In this document: in pieces, positions 292 through 21,666 of the stretch
Layout: each line of letters opens with the position of its first letter
Numbering within the stretch: position 1 is the stretch's first letter
Assembly (NCBI GenBank): GCA_030844625.1
Contig: JAUUNJ010000011.1
Location: 1 to 21,666 of the forward strand
Source: Roseburia sp.
Lineage (GTDB): Bacteria > Bacillota > Clostridia > Lachnospirales > Lachnospiraceae
Direction of reading: 5' to 3'
Length of the DNA stretch: 21,666 nt
The notes under the pieces: generated by a model
Database searches by the model: none
The model's input: only the letters and a program-made list of their open reading frames with translations
Told to the model about the DNA's origin: nothing
Program-made: the position numbers and the translations under genes

Positions 292-1602
292 TTATATTGT
301 TATTACTCCTGCTGGAATTTTAATATTTTCATTCTTGCACATATAAAAAGCATCTTTTCCAATATATTTCAGGCTCTTTGGTAATGTAACATCTGTCAGT
401 TTATCACACATTGCAAAAGCCTCTTCCCCGATTGTTTGCACACCCTCAGGAATTACAACTTTTTCAAGTTTGGATTTTTCATTGGTATAATATCTTCTGT
501 TTCTAAAAGCTCTTGGTGCAATTTCTTTTACATTTGAAGGAATTATCACTTCCTGATCATTTCCAATATATCTGATCAGCACTCCATCATCTGTAATATA
601 CATATTGTTAACAACCTTAATCTTTTCCGGAAGCTGTTTTGCTATTTCCTCAATGGAAATTAAATTTTTCTTTTCATCAGGATAGAAATTATACATATAA
701 TCAAAAGTATCTACCAATGTGACAATACTCTTTGAATCTAACTTCTTTGTCTTAATAACAAATTCATCAATTGCCATTTCATCTACATTATCATAACTGG
801 TCCTATAACTTGTATTATCTATTCTTTCCACCGTTTCAGGAATTGTGACCTTCACTAATTCCCTGCAGAGAGCTACATCCCTGTCATCATCCAAATAATA
901 TCCATATAAAATTGACTGAAGGCAGAAATCTGTACAGCCGTTTTCGATTACAAGTTCTTTTCTTCCGCTTGGTACTCTGACAATCTTCTTTCCATCCTTT
1001 GAATAAATAACACCCTTAATGCTCTTATATTTCGTATCTTTCTTACTAACATATAAGTTATCTGCATAACAATAACTTACATTTTTCACCGAAAGTTTGG
1101 TGTTAAAGGTTACATTCTTAACCTTTGACATAATTCCGCACCATTCCCCGTCCCCGGCTTTCACCTTAACTTTAAATTTGCCCGGTATTGTAATGTTTTT
1201 TAATTTCTTACATCCGACAAATGCTTCGTTTCCTATAGTTTTTACACTGGTTGGAATGGTGATTTTTTTAATGGATGTGTTTTCAAAACTATGCCATCCA
1301 ATGGTTTTTACTGTCTTTGGAATCGTCACTGTCTTTAAATTTTTACATCCCGAAAATGCATATTTGGAAATATAAGTGATACCCTTTTTAATTACAACTT
1401 TTTTAATCTTCTTGTTGTTCTTAAATCTCATACTGTCAGGCATCCTGCCTTTTCCTCTAATTGTCAATGTTCCCTTTTTCAGTTCGTACGTTACTTTTTT
1501 CTTTGTTTTCTTTGTTGCTGCCTGGGTATTGGTTACGGACACCAGCGTAACTGTCAATGCTAAAAGAAAAACTATTACAAATGCTTTTGATATTTTTTTC
1601 AT
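292..1602 (-). CDS. Secreted BspA-like leucine-rich repeat protein (LRR_5 type)
   Basis: 436 residues. Residues 1-28 form a signal peptide with a KK-containing start, a long hydrophobic core and an AxA-like end (TQAA). The mature protein is Lys-rich. LRR_5 repeats of the form 'IG..AF..C..L..VTIP..V' occur around residues 70-150 (for example IGNEAFVGCKKLKNITIP) and again at 355-436 (IGEEAFAMCDKLTDVTLP). Between them is about 200 residues of less regular sequence. There is no sortase motif and no C-terminal membrane anchor, so it is probably released or held by charge. BspA-like proteins of other bacteria bind host matrix proteins or other bacteria; that role is inferred here. It lies 15 bases downstream of another LRR gene with its own AAGGAGG site, and a terminator follows, so it is the second gene of a two-gene operon. 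Confidence 0.85.
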   Translation of the reverse strand: MKKISKAFVIVFLLALTVTLVSVTNTQAATKKTKKKVTYELKKGTLTIRGKGRMPDSMRFKNNKKIKKVVIKKGITYISKYAFSGCKNLKTVTIPKTVKTIGWHSFENTSIKKITIPTSVKTIGNEAFVGCKKLKNITIPGKFKVKVKAGDGEWCGIMSKVKNVTFNTKLSVKNVSYCYADNLYVSKKDTKYKSIKGVIYSKDGKKIVRVPSGRKELVIENGCTDFCLQSILYGYYLDDDRDVALCRELVKVTIPETVERIDNTSYRTSYDNVDEMAIDEFVIKTKKLDSKSIVTLVDTFDYMYNFYPDEKKNLISIEEIAKQLPEKIKVVNNMYITDDGVLIRYIGNDQEVIIPSNVKEIAPRAFRNRRYYTNEKSKLEKVVIPEGVQTIGEEAFAMCDKLTDVTLPKSLKYIGKDAFYMCKNENIKIPAGVITI

Positions 1603-1617
1603 GCTGCGTCCTCCTTT

Positions 1618-2991
1618 TTAATTACCATTTACCTTGTATGCTTTTACAACTTCATTATTTGCTTTTATTACCACATTCTCATCACATGAGACACCATATC
1701 CGGCATACTTACCATATTCATCGGTTCGAATCATGTTCTTATTATTTGTAACATCAAGTTCTTTAATCCTTGTTCCCTCAATATTCAGATAATCCAGATT
1801 AGTGTTTTTTGAAATATCAATTGTTGATAATTTTGTATGATTCAATTGTGCTGAATAAAGCTTTGGACAGTTGGATAAATCAATCTGTGAAATTTCGTTA
1901 TTACCTGCTGTCAAATGGAATAATTCCTTTAGATTTGTTACATCCAGTTTGGTTAGTTTATTTTGGGAACAATCTAAATCGGATAACTTTGTCAGCCTAC
2001 TTAAATCAAGGGTTAATAATTGATTTCCACTACACTCCAGACTTTCTAAGCTCGTCAAATTACTCAAATCAAGTTTTTCTAACTTATTATTATTACAATC
2101 AAGTATCGTTAACTTTTTATTGTTCTTAAGATTTAATTTCTCTAAACTGTTATGATCAACGCTCAGACAATCAATTCTGGTGTTTTTACTGAAATCAATA
2201 TTCCTGATTTTTTCATTGCCTTGTATCATAACAAATGTTAACTGCTTATTATTTTTCAAATTCAGTTTAGAGAGATTGGTGTTTGTAATCCACAGCCGTT
2301 TTAATTTCTTGTTTTTTGTCAGGTTGGCCTTCTTTAATTCTTTTCCTTTCATTGTGAGAGAAGTAAGATTTTTCAGTTTTGTTATATCCACATTCTTTGT
2401 TTTTCCACTGATTTCAACACTTGTTAATTTTTGATTTTTTCCAAACCTGATCTTGCCAGTTTTTGAATTACTTATAAACTCCTTCAGTTTTTTATTGCCA
2501 GAAACAGTTATGGTTTTTATTTTACTGCTGGTAATGTTTACACTCTTTAATTTTTTTATTTTACTAATGCTTATGTTTCCTGCTTTTACATTAGATAAAT
2601 ATATCTCCTTCACTTCTTTACATTGGTTAATCTCTGAGAAATTTTTTAATTTTACTTTCTGTTTTTCTCCAGTAATATAAATGGTTTCAATCGCCTTAAG
2701 TTTGGAAATACCTTTTAGATTAATCGTACCTTTTTTTACATGAATATAAAGTTCCGCACCCTCTTCCTGATTTTTCTGCTCCATAATACTGATAAGTCCA
2801 TCGTTATTATCATCTATTGCCTTTAAAGTCTTTCTTAAATTGGCATCCGGAAAATTAGTCTTATTAAGTTTTACCCCTTCATATTGCTGGGAATTCAGAT
2901 CTGCCTTTACTGTTACATTAAAACCTGCTCCGACTGCTGACATCATCGCAAACATCATGGTTGTTGCCAAAACTTTTCTAAATGTCTTCAT
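1618..2991 (-). CDS. Secreted internalin-like leucine-rich repeat protein with an EF-hand loop
   Basis: 457 residues from the ATG at 2991, which has AGGAGGGAGG directly upstream; an in-frame ATG 14 codons earlier has no such site. Residues 1-30 are a signal peptide ending VKA. Residues 46-71 hold the 'NFPDANLRKTLK' motif common at the N-terminus of Clostridia LRR proteins, followed by a complete 12-residue EF-hand loop (D60, N62, D64, G65, I67, E71), so calcium binding is likely. From about residue 80 to 430 there are roughly 16 or more short repeats. The early ones are irregular and Lys-rich. The later ones are typical 'L..LDCSNNKL..LDLSNLT' units of 20-23 residues. No anchor is seen. It is the promoter-proximal gene of the pair with the BspA-like protein. 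Binding to a host or glycan surface is inferred from the fold alone. Confidence 0.83.
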   Translation of the reverse strand: MKTFRKVLATTMMFAMMSAVGAGFNVTVKADLNSQQYEGVKLNKTNFPDANLRKTLKAIDDNNDGLISIMEQKNQEEGAELYIHVKKGTINLKGISKLKAIETIYITGEKQKVKLKNFSEINQCKEVKEIYLSNVKAGNISISKIKKLKSVNITSSKIKTITVSGNKKLKEFISNSKTGKIRFGKNQKLTSVEISGKTKNVDITKLKNLTSLTMKGKELKKANLTKNKKLKRLWITNTNLSKLNLKNNKQLTFVMIQGNEKIRNIDFSKNTRIDCLSVDHNSLEKLNLKNNKKLTILDCNNNKLEKLDLSNLTSLESLECSGNQLLTLDLSRLTKLSDLDCSQNKLTKLDVTNLKELFHLTAGNNEISQIDLSNCPKLYSAQLNHTKLSTIDISKNTNLDYLNIEGTRIKELDVTNNKNMIRTDEYGKYAGYGVSCDENVVIKANNEVVKAYKVNGN

Positions 2992-3155
2992 ATTTTCCTC
3001 CCTCCTAATAATAACTTTGTTTTTCATACGCAACCTGTTTTACTTAAATCCCTTTTTTCATAACCCAACCTGCGCGTTTTTGATATAACATTGAACTGTT
3101 ATAATTATTAAACGCAAGTAAATCTGTTTTTATCGCACAATTTAATTATATATGC

Positions 3156-6630: not shown

Positions 6631-8325
6631 CTATGTTCTTGTGAGAATCAGAAAACTGTTAAATACATTAATTTCTCCATATCCCCACTGCCTGCTTGGA
6701 TAAACAATATCTCTTTCTCTGCCCGCACCCCTTATCAGATAATTCTTAATGTAATTGGTTTTCATATAAATTTCATTCTGCTGAACAATCCCCCATTGAA
6801 GCATTTGGGCACAGCATCCTGCTGCCATTGCCGCTCCCACTGAAGTTCCTGACTTTCTGACAAAATTCTGGGCAGTTCCCGGTCCATATACATTCACAGA
6901 AGGTGCCACCACATCCGGTTTCACCCTGTTATCTGTTGTAAACCCTCTCCCTGACTGTGGATAAATACTATTTGTAACATGATTGAACCCACCAACTGTT
7001 ATGATATTTGAAGCAGAAGACGGCGGTGTTATTGTAATTTCCGGGTCCGGTTTCAAAAAGTATGTGTCTACATTAGTAAACTGCCTAAGGCCCGCCCAGA
7101 TGTTAAATCTTCCTGACAAGATATTGTTTCCATAAACCCTTATTGTCCATATTCCCGGAGAGGGATTGATAAATCTCATAAAAATAAGTTCTGCTCCAAC
7201 TCCCGATTCCACCAGACTATAATCTACATCTATCATTGTTCCTTCCAGAAGAAAATTCAGCCTGCTGCTTGTATCTTTTCTGGCAGGTATTCTGGGAACG
7301 CTTTCTCCTAATGGCGAAACAAAGGAAACAGAAAATACATCCGGGGAATTTCCCCACAGTTCAAGTACAAACCCCTTATTCCTCTCACCTACTCTGATTT
7401 CCACCTCATCAACCTGATTGTCTTCTACAACTCCTCCATAATGCAATCTTTCGTTTCCTTCATTGCCGCTGCACACTACCACACAGTTACCGATAATCTG
7501 TCCTATTTCATTTAATAGCTGGGACAGCGGCGAACCGCCTGCTCTGGAACCGCTGCCGGTACCCACTCCCAGAACAATAACAACAGGTTTTTTATATTGT
7601 TCCTTTAAATCCATTAAATAGGAAACAGCCAGCATAATATCATTCTCCTGATATGCCGGCTCATCTGTATCTATAAGAAAATATTCCCTTAAGTATTGCT
7701 TTGCCGGTTTCAGCTTTACCATCGCAATCAGACTGGCGGGAGCTGTTCCTATAAAATCATTTTGTTCATCATATCTGCCGCATGCCACTCCTGCCATAAA
7801 TGTACCATGTCCTATTGTGTCTCTATGCGGCACTACCTCTTCCGGATTTTCACTGCTCAACGCCCTGTTAATATCCTCCATTGTATATTCACTTCCATAG
7901 TCAAACCCTTTCGGATGATTCCCACTGTGATCTGTCTGGTCCCATATTCCCACAATTCTAGTCTGTCCTGTGGCGTTTCGAAACATATCGTTGGTATAAT
8001 CAATTCCCGTATCAATAAATCCTATAATTACGTCCTGTCCGGTAAGTTCAAATCCGGTCTGATTCTGAAGCCTGATTGCTCCTGTGGAAGCCGTTGCAGT
8101 GGTATCCATTAATCCATAAATTTTAGGAATAGCGCTGTAAGGATAATTTTCAACATTTAAGGCAGCCATATTTTCCAGTTTTCCATATAAAGAAACATAT
8201 CTGTTGTTAATAAACTGAGGACAGTTTTCTATATATTGCTCTAATACATTTTCTCTGTTAATACTAAATTCCCCTATAAAATCAGCATATTCTTCCGAAG
8301 TAATTATATCTGCACATTCCGCCAT
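6631..8325 (-). CDS. Csp-like subtilase (S8 family peptidase), probably cytoplasmic
   Basis: 564 residues. The subtilisin triad is complete: D105 (GFIDTGIDY), H173 (GHGTFMAGVA) and S495 (SGTSVGAAMAAG), with an oxyanion Asn in CSGNEGNE. There is no signal peptide. Residues 1-80 look like the short N-terminal prodomain of Csp proteases. Residues about 310-430 form a beta-rich insertion (ELWGNSPDVFSVSFVSP to IWTIRVYGN) matching the jelly-roll domain known from Clostridium CspB. CspB activates the spore cortex hydrolase SleC during germination, but Lachnospiraceae often carry several such paralogues whose roles are unknown. No sleC, cspC or other spore gene is nearby, so a germination role is possible but unproven. 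AGAGGAAA precedes the ATG. The gene lies behind the clpX-like terminator and no convincing promoter or terminator of its own was found. Confidence 0.88.
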   Translation of the reverse strand: MAECADIITSEEYADFIGEFSINRENVLEQYIENCPQFINNRYVSLYGKLENMAALNVENYPYSAIPKIYGLMDTTATASTGAIRLQNQTGFELTGQDVIIGFIDTGIDYTNDMFRNATGQTRIVGIWDQTDHSGNHPKGFDYGSEYTMEDINRALSSENPEEVVPHRDTIGHGTFMAGVACGRYDEQNDFIGTAPASLIAMVKLKPAKQYLREYFLIDTDEPAYQENDIMLAVSYLMDLKEQYKKPVVIVLGVGTGSGSRAGGSPLSQLLNEIGQIIGNCVVVCSGNEGNERLHYGGVVEDNQVDEVEIRVGERNKGFVLELWGNSPDVFSVSFVSPLGESVPRIPARKDTSSRLNFLLEGTMIDVDYSLVESGVGAELIFMRFINPSPGIWTIRVYGNNILSGRFNIWAGLRQFTNVDTYFLKPDPEITITPPSSASNIITVGGFNHVTNSIYPQSGRGFTTDNRVKPDVVAPSVNVYGPGTAQNFVRKSGTSVGAAMAAGCCAQMLQWGIVQQNEIYMKTNYIKNYLIRGAGRERDIVYPSRQWGYGEINVFNSFLILTRT

Positions 8326-10156: not shown

Positions 10157-11722
10157 TTATTGATTGTTTTGAACTACGCTTTTATCTCCCAGTGTTACAG
10201 TAACATCTTTTTCTTTGTATTGCTGTCCTGAATTATAAGCTACGGTTACCTTGACTTTCTCTCCTGCCTTGTAATACTCTAATATATTCTGCAGTGATGC
10301 CATGGTCGTTACTGTCTGTCCATCAAACTTGGTAATTACATCGTATTGCTTAATTCCCGCTTTATCTGCCGGACTGTCTTCAACTACCGTCTGTATACAG
10401 AGACCTATAGGCAAACCATACTGCTGTGATTCTTCTTCTGTAACAGGATAACCGCTAAGTCCCAGATAGCCTTTTTCGTCATCGCTTACCTTCTCTCTTG
10501 TTTCCTTAGTTTCAAGGGTACTGATAATACTCTTCACTGAAGAAATAGGTATTGCAAATCCCATTCCTTCAACGCTGGCACTTGTGTAATCTCCACTTGA
10601 TGAATACTTTGCAACGTTAATACCAATTACTTCACCCTGTGCATTCAGTAATGCGCCACCACTGTTACCGCCATTAATGGCTGCATCTGTCTGAAGAAGT
10701 TTCATTGTCTTGTTCTCAATTGTTGCTTCTCTGTCTTTCGCACTGATGACACCTGTTGTTACAGATTGTCCATATCCAAGGGCATTACCTATGGCAATGA
10801 CACCTTCACCAACTTTCACAGAATCTGAATCACCTAAAGTAGCCTTTTTAATGTTCTTTAATGTACTATCACTAATATCCTTTAATTTAACCGCCACTAC
10901 TGCAATATCTGCATTAGAATCTGTTCCTTTAATATATCCGTCTACAGAATCTTCAGATTCTTCTCCATTAAACTGAATTTTAAGACTGTCTGCTCCTTCT
11001 ACCACATGATTATTCGTCACGATAAGCAATTCTGAGTCTGTCTGATCAACAATAATTCCTGAACCGGCAGCTTCCTCTTCATAAGAATTATTACTGTCCC
11101 CTTTTCTTCCGCCAAAATAATATTCAAAGATATCATTTGTATAATCATTGGAAGCTTCCACCAAAGTTTTACTTGTAATGGCAACCACAGATGGCATTGC
11201 ACTGTCCACAACTGAAGATGCGTCTGTTACAAATACTCCACTGGAAGAACTGCTGTCTGTTGAACCGCTTTCAACTTTTGTAGAACCGATATCTTCATAA
11301 TTTCCACTGTCTTCTGTCTGCTCTGAGTTAGATTTGTTAGAGGTTATTTTATCTATATCAGAAGAATTTATGTTATTAAATGTTGTGGCGATAGTTACTC
11401 CAAGGGCTGCAACAAGAATAACTGCTGCTACTATAACTGCTACTACAACCATTGGAGTCTTATTTTTTCTTTTATTATTTTTGTTCCAATCCTGATTATA
11501 ATCATTTCCTGAATTATCATAATTACCACTTGTATTGTTCTGTGAACTGTTATAATAACTGTTATTATTGTCACCGGAATTATTGTAATAACTGTTGTTA
11601 TTATCTTCCCCGGAGTTATTGTAATAGCTGTTGTTATTTTCTTCCCCGGAGTTATTGTAGTAATTGTTATTATTATTTTCGGAATCATTATAATTTCCGT
11701 TATTATTTTCGTTATTGTACAT
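10157..11722 (-). CDS. htrA: HtrA/DegP-like membrane serine protease with one PDZ domain
   Basis: 521 residues from the ATG at 11722, which has AAAGGAG at good spacing; a TTG seven codons earlier is unlikely. Residues 1-80 are Asn-, Tyr- and Ser-rich low-complexity sequence with 12-residue repeats. A basic stop (KNNKRKNK) and one membrane helix (about 91-113) follow, giving a cytoplasmic N-terminus and an extracytoplasmic protease. After an acidic Ser-rich linker come the trypsin-like domain, with triad H239 (TNNHVVEGA), D272 (NADIAVV) and S354 (GGNSGGALLN), and a PDZ domain (about 415-505). HtrA proteases degrade or refold damaged exported proteins at the membrane surface. It stands alone between two terminators; no clear promoter or CssR-type site was identified. 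It is co-directional with the clpX-like and S8 protease genes. Confidence 0.93.
   Translation of the reverse strand: MYNNENNNGNYNDSENNNNNYYNNSGEENNNSYYNNSGEDNNNSYYNNSGDNNNSYYNSSQNNTSGNYDNSGNDYNQDWNKNNKRKNKTPMVVVAVIVAAVILVAALGVTIATTFNNINSSDIDKITSNKSNSEQTEDSGNYEDIGSTKVESGSTDSSSSSGVFVTDASSVVDSAMPSVVAITSKTLVEASNDYTNDIFEYYFGGRKGDSNNSYEEEAAGSGIIVDQTDSELLIVTNNHVVEGADSLKIQFNGEESEDSVDGYIKGTDSNADIAVVAVKLKDISDSTLKNIKKATLGDSDSVKVGEGVIAIGNALGYGQSVTTGVISAKDREATIENKTMKLLQTDAAINGGNSGGALLNAQGEVIGINVAKYSSSGDYTSASVEGMGFAIPISSVKSIISTLETKETREKVSDDEKGYLGLSGYPVTEEESQQYGLPIGLCIQTVVEDSPADKAGIKQYDVITKFDGQTVTTMASLQNILEYYKAGEKVKVTVAYNSGQQYKEKDVTVTLGDKSVVQNNQ
11543..11662 (-). repeat. Tandem repeats in htrA encoding an Asn-rich tail
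   Basis: Three near-identical in-frame units of 36, 36 and 33 bases, plus a partial fourth, encode YYNNSGEENNNS-like peptides (residues 21-60 of HtrA). Differences are mostly silent or Glu/Asp changes, which points to recent duplication. Unit-number change between strains would keep the reading frame. Confidence 0.85.
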
Positions 11723-11906
11723 TTCTTTATTCTCCTTTCCCAATCAACATTTTGTTGTTTTGATTTCTATATAAAGTTTAATTTTTATATGTGATTATTT
11801 TGTGTTCTATTTGTTAAAAACCTACGATTATTCTTTGTTAAATCTTTGAATTTCCAAACTGTATCAACATATTTTACTGATCTACCAATTACTGTCCACA
11901 CAAATA

Positions 11907-17543: not shown

Positions 17544-17978
17544 TTATTCCTCGCCTCCTTCATTCAATTCATCAATTATTGCATCATATTCAAGTTCCTG
17601 AATTCTATGTAAAGTTTTTAAGTCTCCATTGTATTCTTTAAGATTTTTTCTGATCCGCTTAAACTTATGGGAATAAAAGGCATAGCTGAAAATCATATAT
17701 AATACAGTCCCAATGACATATATAAGTACCAGCACAACAACCAGTGCTATCAGCCTTCCTGTTGTGGTAAGACCGGATATAACCTTATCTGACTTGTACA
17801 TAAACCACAATACAAGACAGAGCAGATACGCAACAGTGACACACACAAAAGAACTTAACATCTTTAATGACATATAGTCTCCCCTGAAATATCTGCTGGA
17901 TTTTATTTCTCTTTTTTGATTTTTCTGCTCATATAACGACAGCTTTGTCATTAGTATAATCTTTTCATTATTAAGCAT
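17544..17978 (-). CDS. Small two-helix membrane protein, first gene of the cdaA operon
   Basis: 144 residues from the ATG at 17978 (AAGGAG six bases upstream); a start 13 codons earlier lacks a site. It opens with a hydrophilic region (LSLYEQKNQKREIKSSRYFRG), then two membrane helices (about 40-60 and 73-97), then a basic and acidic cytoplasmic tail (KFKRIRKNLKEYNG to ELNEGGEE) that may form a short coiled coil. I do not recognise a family. It is the promoter-proximal gene, directly behind a sigma-A-like promoter, and is tightly coupled to the 320-residue membrane protein. The two probably work as a complex; this is inferred from spacing. Confidence 0.75.
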   Translation of the reverse strand: MLNNEKIILMTKLSLYEQKNQKREIKSSRYFRGDYMSLKMLSSFVCVTVAYLLCLVLWFMYKSDKVISGLTTTGRLIALVVVLVLIYVIGTVLYMIFSYAFYSHKFKRIRKNLKEYNGDLKTLHRIQELEYDAIIDELNEGGEE

Positions 17979-18038
17979 ATAAATCTCCTTAAAACTCTGT
18001 TTTTTATTATCGGGCACAGAAACCCATAATTATTTTTT

Positions 18039-18072: not shown

Positions 18073-18119
18073 AACAGTGAAGCGTTAGGAAATTAAAAAT
18101 TTCCTAACGCTTCACTGTT
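18073..18119 (-). terminator. Terminator of the sigma/serpin operon
   Basis: A perfect 22-base inverted repeat (18073-18094 with 18098-18119) with a 3-base loop lies about 30 bases past the serpin stop codon. On the minus strand it ends in TTTTCATTG, a short U tract. Eleven bases of one arm (ACGCTTCACTG, 18108-18118) recur as a direct repeat at about 18135-18145. Confidence 0.8.
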
Positions 18120-18148: not shown

Positions 18149-19591
18149 CTAAGGCGTAACAACTTTTCCCATAAATAATACATCCTTTGTTGTATTATCC
18201 ATTATAATGTATCCAAAAGGTCTGTCCAGACTGACCGTTTTTGAAGGTTCCGGTATATATGATGTTGCCTTGCACGACACTGAAGTCACGGCTGCCGCCT
18301 TAGTCCCTTCTTCATCCACAATAATCTTACACGCCTGAGAAATATCGGTGGCATAAACAGACTCTGATGTTTGCAGCATATTACCCAATGGATTGGCAGT
18401 CCAGTCGAAAATGGATTGAATCCCTGATGTTTTTAAAACTGCGGTTAAAGCCCCATTATCCTCCCAATCATATGTAAACTTAGGCATACTGATATTAACT
18501 TTATATTTTCCCGTTTTTGATTTTAAGAAGCTCTCAAGTTCCAAATTTGAAAGTTTAAATTCGCCCTCTATTTTCGGAAGTATGGCTATAAATGAATACT
18601 TTTCTTTTTTACCGTAAGTTTTTTCAAATCCAACAGCATAATCATTTTCATAATAAGCATATTCATCGGTATGCATCATATCCACTTTTACTTTTTTACC
18701 ATCAAATTTTGTAAAGTTTTCTTTTCGTGTATAATTTGCCTCAAAAGGTACTGTCCATTCTCCCTTAAATAATAATGCATTTGTAAGGACAACTGCTGTT
18801 TCCTCCGGAATCTCTTTGATTATTTCCTGAATCATTCCTTCGGTATTATTTGATGCCCACTGGTTAATTTCCTGAACTGTACTGTTATCCAATGGAGCCT
18901 TTTTCACTTCAGCATTATAATATTTTTTTACTGCATCATTAAAGAAATGCTTAATATTGTAGTCGTCCCTGTACCATACACCGTTTGCAAGCGTAAGCAT
19001 GGAATCTTTCGCTGCCTGGTTCATCAGTTTTAATGAATACTGATTGTACTCATCAAGCGGCTTGCCCAGATATTTTTCCAAATCTTTCTTCGCATTACTG
19101 ACCGCTCCATTTGCCACCATTCCAAGTGCCATATTTAAAGACGCTGCACTGATAATGATATTTTTCTTATTATAAAGTTTATCCAGTAAATATTCTGATT
19201 GTAATAGTGTAGATCCGTTCACTGACTTTACAGCTTTCTTCACTTTAATCTTACATTTATACTTTTTCCCTTTATATTTGGCTGTAATTGTAACCTTGCC
19301 CTTTTTCAGTGCTCTTACTTTTCCTTTCTTAGATACCGTAGCAACCTTTTTATTTGAACTGGACCACTTTACTTTTTTCTTTTTTGCATTCTTTAGCTTA
19401 AGCATAATTGTCTGATGTGCCCTGATTGTTGCTTTCTTTTTATTTAAAGATATTTTCTTTTTTTTAGATGCTGCACCTTTGGACTGTTGTGTGGAAGATG
19501 CTAATACCTCTGCATTCCCCATTGGAGGTATGTAAGCCGCACACAAAGTCAAAATCAATATGATTGCTGTTATTCTGAATATTTTTTTCAT
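18149..19591 (-). CDS. Secreted serpin (serine protease inhibitor) with N-terminal Big domain
   Basis: 480 residues. A signal peptide spans about 1-27. A Lys-rich bacterial Ig-like (Big_2-type) domain spans about 45-120, with the typical VKWSSSNKKVATVSKKGKV core. The serpin domain spans about 125-480, including TNALLFKGEW (270-279) and the C-terminal signature DRPFGYIIMD with FMGKVVTP. The reactive-loop hinge E427-E-G-T-K-A-A-A434 has the small residues needed for loop insertion, so it should be an inhibitor. Counting from the hinge as in antitrypsin puts the P1-P1' bond at T443-S444. The loop is about four residues longer than antitrypsin's, so K441-A442 is another candidate. Gut bacterial serpins inhibit host neutrophil or pancreatic proteases or rival bacterial ones. 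It is the last gene of an ECF sigma-led operon, 18 bases after an Ig-like secreted protein. Confidence 0.93.
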   Translation of the reverse strand: MKKIFRITAIILILTLCAAYIPPMGNAEVLASSTQQSKGAASKKKKISLNKKKATIRAHQTIMLKLKNAKKKKVKWSSSNKKVATVSKKGKVRALKKGKVTITAKYKGKKYKCKIKVKKAVKSVNGSTLLQSEYLLDKLYNKKNIIISAASLNMALGMVANGAVSNAKKDLEKYLGKPLDEYNQYSLKLMNQAAKDSMLTLANGVWYRDDYNIKHFFNDAVKKYYNAEVKKAPLDNSTVQEINQWASNNTEGMIQEIIKEIPEETAVVLTNALLFKGEWTVPFEANYTRKENFTKFDGKKVKVDMMHTDEYAYYENDYAVGFEKTYGKKEKYSFIAILPKIEGEFKLSNLELESFLKSKTGKYKVNISMPKFTYDWEDNGALTAVLKTSGIQSIFDWTANPLGNMLQTSESVYATDISQACKIIVDEEGTKAAAVTSVSCKATSYIPEPSKTVSLDRPFGYIIMDNTTKDVLFMGKVVTP

Positions 19592-19609
19592 AGGTTTTAC
19601 CTTCTTTCT

Positions 19610-20515
19610 TTACAATTTTTGTGATTTTGTTTTTACTCTGTAAGCACCCTGTTCTCGCCCATTTCTATAAAAAATTATTTCTGCATTCATTCTATATATA
19701 CCCTTTTTCTTAATCTTAAAATTTTTATTCACAAATGCTACACTGCTGTTTTTCACAACACTATATTTTTTGCATTTCTTCCATTTGTTTCCCCGTTTCC
19801 TTTGAATTTTAAGAATAATTTTCACTTTGTCCGTTTTTACATAACTTGCCTCTGAAAAAATCATTGCTCTGCCATTTCTCTTTTGATCCATATAAAAATC
19901 ATAGTTAAGCAATGAAAGGGCATTACTGTCACCGGTAATAGTTGCTCCACAAACAGTTGTGGCCGTAGTCCCCTTTGGAACTGCAGCAGGCATGGCTGAG
20001 TTAGTAACATATTGTTGATTATTATCGCTCTCCGTATCTTCTTTTTCTATTATAAAAGTTTTTCGTGCAAAATAACTCTTTCCCTGACACCTATATTTTA
20101 CATATAAACTATATTTTCCTGCCGGCAATCCCGATTGCGGAATTCTATAATTTTCCCAAAGCACAACACTACCATAAATAGTATTTTTCCCCGAAATCTT
20201 TATGCTGCATCCTGTTTTTACGTCTTCCCTTTTTTCAAAGGGTATCCAGCCGCTATTTTCTTGTACCTGGATTTCGATATTTTTAACTTTAATTTTTGTT
20301 TCAGTATTGTTTTTTATTTTAAAAACAATTTCTTTAACATCCTTGTCAATCTCATCATTTAAAAATGCGACCTTCACCTTTTGATTCAGTTGTTTTTTCA
20401 TCTCAACCTGTTTCGCTTCTACTTTGACAGAATTCAAACTTCCAGCCAATAATCCTATCACTAATATCACAGAAATCAGATGCCTGACAGAAAAAATTTC
20501 TCTTTGTCTTTTCAT
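19610..20515 (-). CDS. Secreted Ig-like protein of unknown function
   Basis: 301 residues. A signal peptide spans about 1-35 (hydrophobic LISVILVIGLLAG, end VEA). Residues 46-156 form a beta-rich domain resembling bacterial Ig-like domains of the type with 'IKNNTETKI', a 'GWIPFEK' strand and a closing 'GLPAGKYSLYVKY' strand. A Ser/Thr/Ala linker (157-190) joins a second, very basic beta-rich domain (195-301; IQRKRGNKWKKCKKY, KGIYRMNAEIIFY) that may be another Ig-like fold. No enzyme motif or anchor is visible. Its ATG directly follows the stop codon of the anti-sigma gene, with GGAGG inside that gene's end, so translation is coupled. Being between anti-sigma and serpin, it could be a ligand, a sensor accessory or a serpin partner; this is speculation from position. 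Confidence 0.75.
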   Translation of the reverse strand: MKRQREIFSVRHLISVILVIGLLAGSLNSVKVEAKQVEMKKQLNQKVKVAFLNDEIDKDVKEIVFKIKNNTETKIKVKNIEIQVQENSGWIPFEKREDVKTGCSIKISGKNTIYGSVVLWENYRIPQSGLPAGKYSLYVKYRCQGKSYFARKTFIIEKEDTESDNNQQYVTNSAMPAAVPKGTTATTVCGATITGDSNALSLLNYDFYMDQKRNGRAMIFSEASYVKTDKVKIILKIQRKRGNKWKKCKKYSVVKNSSVAFVNKNFKIKKKGIYRMNAEIIFYRNGREQGAYRVKTKSQKL

Positions 20516-21196
20516 TTACTGTTCCTCCAATTCTTCTATGATTCTGTCAACAAATTCCTTATTGGCATCCCTGCCCTGAATCTGGACAATATGATAGAAT
20601 TTTTCATCCTGGAAAAATGCCGTTATTCCATCTTCACTGGTTACATAACTTACCGACCAGTTTCCTACATTTCCGGTGTCCTGATTTCCCATTGCAATAT
20701 TTATCTCTGCAGTTTCCGTAATCAGATTTTCTGTATAAGTTATTGTACCATTTTCTGAGGTGAAATGCTGAACTGTCATATTATTTGTCTGATAAAATTC
20801 CAGTTCTGTATAATCATCCGGGATGTTTACAATTTTCATTCTGATAGCACTGGTATCAATATTGATTTTTTCATCCTGCATGTTAAAATTAAGATGAATA
20901 AACCGACTGGTTTTTGTAACAATCACCTGCCATATATTAACGTCAAATGCCTTCACCGACACAATATTAATCATGACAAGACATGCCACTGTCACCGCAA
21001 TTTTTGTCACATATCTGCTCATTCTCTCAAGCCAGATATGTCCGCCAAATTTACTGTCGGCAGAAATCAGCCGGTGCATCTTTTTTTCAAATTTTCTGGA
21101 AAATTTATGAATCCCTGTACTGTCCGGCAATTCTTCCATAAACCGGTTATTATTATTGATTAACGCCCGTGTCAGTAATTTATCATCTATTTTCAT
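20516..21196 (-). CDS. Membrane anti-sigma factor candidate with DUF4367-like sensor domain
   Basis: 226 residues from the ATG at 21196, whose A is also the last base of the sigma gene's TGA stop; a GTG one codon earlier is possible. A cytoplasmic part (1-62) includes HKFSRKFEKKMHRLI, a motif I associate with sigma-linked DUF4367 proteins of Clostridia. One membrane helix (about 64-82) follows, then an extracytoplasmic domain. That domain resembles DUF4367: 'VNIPDDYTELEFYQ' near its start, then alternating strands, and near its end 'EDGITAFFQDEKFYHIVQIQG'. It probably holds the ECF sigma factor at the membrane and releases it on an outside signal. No zinc-binding HxxxCxxC anti-sigma motif is present. 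The coupling by a stop-start overlap supports an equal-ratio pair. Confidence 0.8.
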   Translation of the reverse strand: MKIDDKLLTRALINNNNRFMEELPDSTGIHKFSRKFEKKMHRLISADSKFGGHIWLERMSRYVTKIAVTVACLVMINIVSVKAFDVNIWQVIVTKTSRFIHLNFNMQDEKINIDTSAIRMKIVNIPDDYTELEFYQTNNMTVQHFTSENGTITYTENLITETAEINIAMGNQDTGNVGNWSVSYVTSEDGITAFFQDEKFYHIVQIQGRDANKEFVDRIIEELEEQ

Positions 21197-21666
21197 CACT
21201 GCTCCTCCTTAAGCATCTCTTCCAGCATTTTTCGTCCTGTAAAAAGATGTTGTCTGACATTGGTTTCACTTAATCCTGTAATCTGGGATATCTCTTTTCC
21301 GGAATATCCCATTACATACTTTAAGACCATTATAGATGAGTATTTGTATGGCAATGCATTGATTGCATACTCCAATTCATTTACAATTTTATCTGAACCT
21401 TCTGCTTTGCACCTGTCAAAAAAAGTTTCTCCGTGATTTTTATTCTCTTCATCATTTAACTCAGATTCCAAAACTTCACTTCGTTTCTTCCACTTATCAT
21501 AAAGCTTCATCGCCTCTCTCTTGACAATAATCGCCACAAAATTTTTTGTCCTCCTGCCTTCCACATCTCCTATTTTATCCATGTTTTTAGCAATTCTTAA
21601 AAAAGCCTCCTGAACCGCGTCCTCGGAATCTCTTTCATCTTTCAGCACCTGAAATGCGATGTAGTA
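21196..21666 (-). CDS. ECF-type RNA polymerase sigma factor, 5' end cut by the window
   Basis: 156 codons plus stop are visible; the frame stays open to base 21666, so the start and the first part of region 2 are outside. The visible part begins YYIAFQVLKDERDSEDAVQE and AFLRIAKN, the -10-binding region 2 of ECF sigma factors. A variable, charged linker follows (ESELNDEENKNHGETFFDRCKAEG). Region 4 comes next: ALPYKYSSIMVLKYVMGYSG, then helix-turn-helix EISQITGLSETNVRQHLFTGRK, which reads the -35. It directs transcription of a small regulon, often including its own operon. The next gene, a membrane anti-sigma candidate, overlaps its stop codon, and a secreted Ig-like protein and a serpin follow. 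Its promoter lies beyond the window, so autoregulation cannot be checked. Confidence 0.92.
   Translation of the reverse strand, partial: YYIAFQVLKDERDSEDAVQEAFLRIAKNMDKIGDVEGRRTKNFVAIIVKREAMKLYDKWKKRSEVLESELNDEENKNHGETFFDRCKAEGSDKIVNELEYAINALPYKYSSIMVLKYVMGYSGKEISQITGLSETNVRQHLFTGRKMLEEMLKEEQ

Follow-up and report, generated by a model that had tools for sequence, protein, structure and literature searches.

An ECF sigma factor, an anti-sigma-like membrane protein and a secreted serpin encoded in one conserved operon of Roseburia sp.

Gut and rumen bacteria live amid host and microbial proteases, and Bifidobacterium breve is the only case found in our search of the open-access literature in which a bacterial serpin has a dedicated protease-inducible regulator, a two-component system governing the serpin operon (Alvarez-Martin 2012, as described in the available text of PMC8012564). 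Here we describe a four-gene operon of Roseburia sp. that encodes an extracytoplasmic function (ECF) sigma factor, a single-pass membrane protein resembling an anti-sigma factor, a third, secreted protein and a secreted serpin. It lies in contig JAUUNJ010000011.1 (positions 1 to 21,666, forward strand), and this whole stretch of 21,666 nucleotides is henceforth called the window. B. breve offers the closest functional parallel, in that a serpin of a gut bacterium has its own regulator encoded next to it, one that is protease-inducible there (available text of PMC8012564). It differs in belonging to another phylum and in using a two-component system, whereas the window has an ECF sigma factor and an anti-sigma-like protein. 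In Bifidobacterium longum, a serpin and an ECF sigma pair are both raised on galactose, and the available text of PMC10059941 draws no link between them.

On the regulatory side, the operon recalls sigmaV/RsiV of Bacillus subtilis and Clostridioides difficile, in which an ECF sigma factor is paired with a membrane anti-sigma factor that senses an outside factor, and the output counters that factor (available text of PMC9044953). RsiV, however, binds lysozyme (PMC9044953), carries DUF4179 (available text of PMC8844934) and has an output that modifies peptidoglycan, whereas the window combines a DUF4367-like domain with a serpin, and stepwise proteolysis is here something we infer. The RsgI proteins of cellulolytic clostridia are anti-sigma factors with an effector-like extracellular sensor domain, in which they resemble the membrane-anchored serpins described below; as far as the available text of PMC12484212, PMC3413522 and PMC3990059 goes, their sensors are carbohydrate-binding or enzyme domains and not serpins, and cellulosomal serpins are treated apart from RsgI. 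Among gut serpins, the siropins of Eubacterium siraeum and the E. saburreum serpin inhibit elastase-like proteases, with no regulator described in the available text of PMC8201313. The open-access literature search turned up neither a serpin controlled by an ECF switch nor an anti-sigma factor of serpin type, in agreement with an earlier sequence-only reading of this DNA, which knew of no described bacterial system with a serpin as the output of its own ECF switch. Each of the three components, ECF factors, anti-sigma proteins and serpins, was known before, and the novelty lies in their coupling.

The operon is read on the minus strand in the following order:

21196..21666, minus strand: ECF sigma factor, truncated at the 5' end by the window edge (Sigma70_r4_2 6.7e-14 and Sigma70_r2 3.8e-7, both over the cut-off)
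20516..21196, minus strand: single-pass anti-sigma-like protein of 227 residues (22 homologues including that of the window, alignment A2; a predicted transmembrane segment; an AlphaFold2 model)
19610..20515, minus strand: secreted third protein of 301 residues, with a Big_14-like N-terminal part (below the cut-off) and a conserved C-terminal part of about 90 residues
18149..19591, minus strand: secreted Big_2-serpin of 480 residues (Serpin 1e-76, Big_2 1.6e-11; alignment A1)
18073..18119, minus strand: intrinsic terminator at the operon end, a 20-pair hairpin followed by a T-run

The tight packing claimed in the sequence-only reading was borne out at every junction: the sigma stop codon and the next ATG share one base (21196), the last base of the anti-sigma-like gene (20516) directly abuts the first base of the third gene (20515), the serpin gene follows after a spacer of 18 bases, and the 20-pair hairpin closes the unit (89-nucleotide fold of -47.2 kcal/mol, z -10.55).

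This gene order is conserved. A genome scan with the serpin alignment returned 28 loci, all of which were inspected, the nearest named ones being metagenome-assembled genomes (MAGs) of Eubacterium and Lachnospiraceae; a public MAG labelled Eubacterium sp. has a serpin 99% identical to that of the window. The order of sigma factor, anti-sigma-like protein, third protein and serpin is kept in L001, L002, L003 and L007 (serpin identity 47-49%) and in L071. Among the 15 closest loci (L001-L015), L010 and L011 encode a diverged sigma factor, anti-sigma-like protein and serpin, and nine have no sigma/anti-sigma pair in the DNA covered, some of these contigs being short. Co-occurrence, scored from the anti-sigma and serpin searches in the genus of G001, follows the same line. 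Of the 23 genomes of this genus, five have a member of the anti-sigma family and six have a serpin. All five genomes with the anti-sigma family, L071 being the fifth, carry the serpin in cassette order, and the sixth serpin genome holds an unrelated 369-residue serpin (L072) without the pair and is one of the 18 genomes that have neither the anti-sigma family nor the cassette serpin. The gene downstream of the operon (17544-18017 in the window) is present in all 23 genomes: the cassette lies ahead of it in four and elsewhere in G006, and the 18 genomes without the cassette have other genes there. At one of these 18 places (L167), a weak serpin-profile match fell on a 234-residue protein in a genome with no Pfam serpin. 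Three further pairings are suggested by public proteins whose contigs agree in size (6216, 45198 and 5072 bases).

We conclude that the coupling of switch and serpin is well supported, and the proposal of the sequence-only reading that the genes form one coupled cassette holds on two grounds, the joint presence or absence of anti-sigma and serpin genes in the genus and an ECF-type promoter before the sigma gene in relatives. Serpins rarely found beside the pair would have marked the link as accidental; within the genus, five of five pairs stand with a serpin and five of six serpin genomes have the pair. That the serpin is an accidental neighbour under its own control is very improbable: 95 of 115 serpins in the wider sample described below have no upstream sigma gene and sigma-70-like sites within the operon are at background level (18 versus 15.8 expected), but against this stand the five-of-five co-occurrence with joint absence in the genus, the 18-base spacing, a promoter that remains before a serpin after loss of the sigma gene, and the enrichment of sigma-like genes upstream of serpins (20/115 versus 2/647).

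The promoter was read from the relatives. TAACAT-N15-GRTT stands 5' of the sigma start in 8/8 related loci inspected. The extended clade-1 form, which was built from the very sites it recovers, gave at up to three mismatches a single site, at the operon, in G001, G002, G003 and G411, and in G006 the operon site and an additional intragenic one with three mismatches; no site was obtained with the reversed control. The tail of the motif is not the same between the two clades. The pattern TAACAT-N14-GGRTTWTAT was found in 4/8 genomes. Counts for TAACAT-N15-GRTTWATAT with one mismatch were near those of the reversed control in most genomes (7 versus 9 in G007, 4 versus 4 in G001), and only exact matches were therefore taken further: two in G005, one in G007 and three in G008. 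In these three genomes, which form the second clade, the same promoter type also stands 5' of a membrane protein of about 308 residues without known family (L124:4423-5415, L125:4348-5347, L126:4236-5228; 3/3 genomes, the G007 site being a one-mismatch site), a possible second regulon member as judged by its promoter. G008 further has a sigma/anti-sigma pair followed by a 699-residue protein with no serpin between (L074), and L010 and L011 have that protein beyond the serpin. On another contig of G008 (L009:3795-3930), the same promoter and an early-stopped relic of the first sigma codons directly precede a Big_2-serpin, as if the switch had been lost and its promoter had stayed with the serpin.

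The sigma fragment of the window lacks about 30 residues at its 5' end by comparison with L001. Orthologues are present in L001, L002, L003, L007 and L071, and both the fragment and the full-length relatives in L001, L010, L007 and L071 contain sigma regions 2 and 4 and no other domain.

Directly after the sigma gene, the 227-residue protein has the predicted topology of an anti-sigma factor, with a helical, cytoplasmic N-terminus, one transmembrane segment and an extracellular C-terminal beta domain:

20960..21010, minus strand: predicted transmembrane segment by hydropathy, residues 64-80 of the 227-residue reading
20948..20959, minus strand: S-V-K-A just past the transmembrane segment, S81 and A84 being invariant in A2
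20519..20845, minus strand: extracellular beta domain, closest solved folds the RseB/MucB C-terminal domain by a small margin

The single predicted transmembrane segment agrees with the one-pass DUF4367-like protein named earlier, and the family name needs qualification: no Pfam or NCBIfam family matches the protein itself, DUF4367 does not match the window protein or those of L001 and L010, and the assignment comes through distant relatives, since all four tested among those found with the anti-sigma profile (L075, L077, L083, L088) score DUF4367. In the AlphaFold2 model, the mean predicted local distance difference test (pLDDT) score is a modest 66.5, and the margin of the RseB/MucB C-terminal domain over other folds is small. 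RseB is a separate periplasmic protein; the window thus differs from sigmaE/RseA/RseB and MucA/MucB in that the RseB/MucB-like domain would belong to the anti-sigma-like protein itself. Signal-peptidase cleavage past the transmembrane segment is known in RsiV and RsiP (available text of PMC9044953 and PMC8844934), and S-V-K-A is a speculative candidate for such a site 1, not conserved in L010, L011 and L074. A scan of viral contigs with A2 gave 60 pattern matches, none of them a relative. In L011 (7955-9905), three tandem open reading frames matching the anti-sigma profile precede the serpin, the last two being shorter and without the N-terminal part. In L085 (958-3241), the genes after a distant sigma/anti-sigma-like pair encode a secreted protein and a cysteine protease of papain-like type (Peptidase_C39_2/C70).

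In the window, the serpin is a protein of its own whose N-terminus resembles a signal peptide, and its Serpin domain spans residues 140-480, covering profile positions 18-370 of 370. Its closest solved relatives include tengpin.

18236..18307, minus strand: hinge and reactive-centre loop, starting GTKAAAVTS (alignment A1 and solved relatives)

The small-residue hinge GTKAAAVT is present as in inhibitory serpins. The P1 residue is presumably Thr443 by the 17-residue rule, and the small residues near it suggest elastase- or subtilisin-like proteases as targets.

The third protein had been described as Ig-like, which holds in part: its Big_14-like N-terminal part is shared with P0144 only, and the third proteins of L001, L002, L003 and L007 lack it and retain only the C-terminal 90 residues or so. 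The AlphaFold2 model (mean pLDDT 51) is usable only for the last 100 residues or so. A homologue in L075 stands after a DUF4367 protein with no serpin there, and in evolution the partner of the third protein may thus be the switch rather than the serpin.

The sequences show an operon that is conserved, a rare promoter-like site ahead of the sigma gene in relatives, and the serpin hinge. From these features, we consider it likely that the operon works as a self-contained ECF switch under its own control, with the secreted serpin as its main output and serine proteases, or the envelope damage that results from them, as the most likely cue. At rest, the single-pass protein would bind the sigma factor and keep it at the membrane. 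Attack by a serine protease, or envelope damage arising from it, would make the extracellular domain yield, and stepwise cutting of the anti-sigma-like protein would free the sigma factor. Freed sigma factor would transcribe its own operon from the AAC-type ECF promoter, giving more third protein and Big_2-serpin, and the serpin would close a feedback loop by trapping proteases of elastase or subtilisin type at the cell surface, which would damp the signal.

The association of sigma factors with serpins extends beyond the genus. Serpins were found in 140 of 397 genomes in a family sample of relatives, and we analysed 100 regions around the top-scoring serpin places among the matches listed, holding 115 serpin genes; a serpin was counted as linked when a sigma-like gene lay within three same-strand genes upstream. 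Such a gene precedes 20/115 serpin genes versus 2/647 control genes (Fisher 1.5e-15, relatedness not corrected) and 0/66 controls whose products carry a single N-terminal hydrophobic segment (Fisher 5.9e-5, relatedness not corrected), while a sigma-like gene lies downstream of 4/115 serpins versus 12/647 controls. The 20 linked serpins have 19 distinct sigma-like genes upstream; in 17 of these, Pfam places sigma region 2 at or over the cut-off, so that 18 of the 20 linked serpins adjoin a gene with this region. It is missing from the neighbour of L276 (HTH_3 and region 4), which is not an ECF factor, and from that of L281 (only a weak region 4), which is doubtful. Ten of the 20 linked serpins are separated from the sigma-like gene by one or two genes, the sigma-adjacent one encoding a single hydrophobic segment; the first serpin of L316 directly follows the sigma gene and has a signal-peptide-like start; and the other nine are themselves membrane-anchored. 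The serpin reading frame of L275 overlaps its neighbour and was probably called too long. In a quick tree of 134 serpins (the 115 and another 19, from the window and its relatives; 48 of 131 inner branches open), the label 'linked' changes 14 times (at least 10 forced by the starred branches; shuffled mean 18.0) and the label 'fused' 7 times (at least 5 forced; shuffled mean 8.8). By this tree, the association was gained or lost repeatedly, on scattered branches, and judged by gene order the link recurs with other anti-sigma-like proteins, which goes beyond what the sequence-only reading had claimed.

In the nine anchored serpins (L245, L276, L281, L285, L307, the second serpin of L316, L334, L335 and L336), some 30-55 N-terminal residues, predicted to be cytoplasmic, are followed by a transmembrane segment and the serpin domain. 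A profile of the N-terminal motif, built from L276, L281, L307, L334, L335 and L336 and run against 1810 proteins, matched seven others at E<0.1, five of them encoded directly after a sigma gene (53/1810 overall); the remaining two are the second serpin of L316 and a protein of L321 whose next gene is a serpin. A further five matches were weaker (0.12 to 0.93), and none of these is encoded after a sigma gene. An anti-sigma-like motif is thus common to 7/9 anchored serpins. The profile misses L245, L285 and L362, where the anti-sigma label is one of position and topology alone. Under a strict anchor rule, L245 and L334 fail, having Met just before the transmembrane segment, and three unlinked serpins pass by what we read as the serpin's own helix; none of 106 unlinked serpins was judged to have such an anchor. 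At class level, 175/391 genomes match the serpin-fusion profile, mostly through its serpin part, and among the 30 matches listed a sigma gene stands with an anchored serpin at L338 and L362 and in the order sigma, protein, serpin at L356, L357 and L365, with Pfam sigma region 2 in all five sigma genes. Hinge-like motifs occur in anchored serpins (GTKAGAATA in L245, GTEAAAATV in L307), and 3/9 have less typical hinges (GAEASAFT, GVEASAFT, GCTAAAYT). The anchored serpin beside the sigma gene at L245:8355-10514 carries a C-terminal BspA-type leucine-rich repeat region. At L316:7436-11161, the sigma gene is followed by two serpins, the first secreted and the other with a cytoplasmic anti-sigma-like N-terminus and a transmembrane segment, possibly an output serpin and a sensor serpin sharing one operon.

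From this architecture, the serpin may act as the sensor in the anchored forms, and the clearest hint at a protease cue is that several sigma-linked membrane proteins have a serpin at the sensor position. We tentatively extend this to a scheme, which we put forward as a possibility short of a preferred view, in which Lachnospiraceae-like and other Clostridia would use serpins as wired protease detectors. An anchored serpin would be the anti-sigma sensor, and attack on its reactive loop would free the sigma factor through the serpin snap or the trapping of the protease; in operons of the window's type, a separate anti-sigma factor would feel the same stress and the serpin would be the mass-produced output; L316 would hold both halves. 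If true, an ECF switch with serpin output together with anchored serpins would make protease sensing in Clostridia testable by a two-gene reporter, and the irreversible conformational change of serpins would gain a role as a transmembrane signal.

Several observations weigh against a protease-responsive switch dedicated to the serpin. The sigma promoter of the window itself falls beyond the window end. Most serpins of the family sample (95/115) lack an upstream sigma gene. The sensor domain in the window is not a serpin, and the protease cue is therefore borrowed from other systems. None of 15 distant anti-sigma-profile hits in the family sample adjoins a serpin, nor does any of 30 DUF4367 loci inspected over about 1.5 kb on each side, so that outside the genus serpins are indeed rare beside relatives of the pair; these loci have other secreted neighbours, including varied secreted or lipoprotein-like genes after the distant anti-sigma relatives, and the pair therefore need not sense proteases. 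Finally, the promoter before the 308-residue membrane protein in G005, G007 and G008 means that the regulon there is not serpin-only.

The neighbours of the distant relatives and the second promoter would suit a general envelope-stress switch, in which the ECF/DUF4367-like pair responds to wall damage, antimicrobial peptides or lysozyme-like ligands, the serpin would be one surface output among several and proteases would not be the signal; RsiV, which senses lysozyme, is a precedent (available text of PMC9044953). Against it, the anti-sigma family occurs in the window's genus only together with the serpin, the promoter form is rare, and other sigma systems acquired serpins on scattered branches. 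We regard such a general switch as conceivable, with the balance against it. It is unlikely, in our view, that the serpin takes part in sensing, with complexed or cleaved serpin, or the loss of free serpin, feeding back on the anti-sigma-like protein: the 9/115 serpins with a cytoplasmic N-terminus and transmembrane segment beside a sigma-like gene, L338 and L362 at class level, and the series of sigma factor, secreted serpin and anchored serpin in L316 speak for it, but the serpin of the window is a separate protein that begins like a signal peptide, and its contact with the anti-sigma-like protein would be hypothetical. An autoregulated ECF switch with the serpin as its main output remains our preferred reading.

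Elsewhere in the window, no Rfam family scored over threshold and no transfer RNA genes were found. The window also contains an HtrA-like gene (10157-11743) and a subtilase gene (6631-8325), but no ECF-type promoter site at up to three mismatches was found in it. Two adjoining secreted open reading frames at 292-3033 are leucine-rich-repeat-like by eye.

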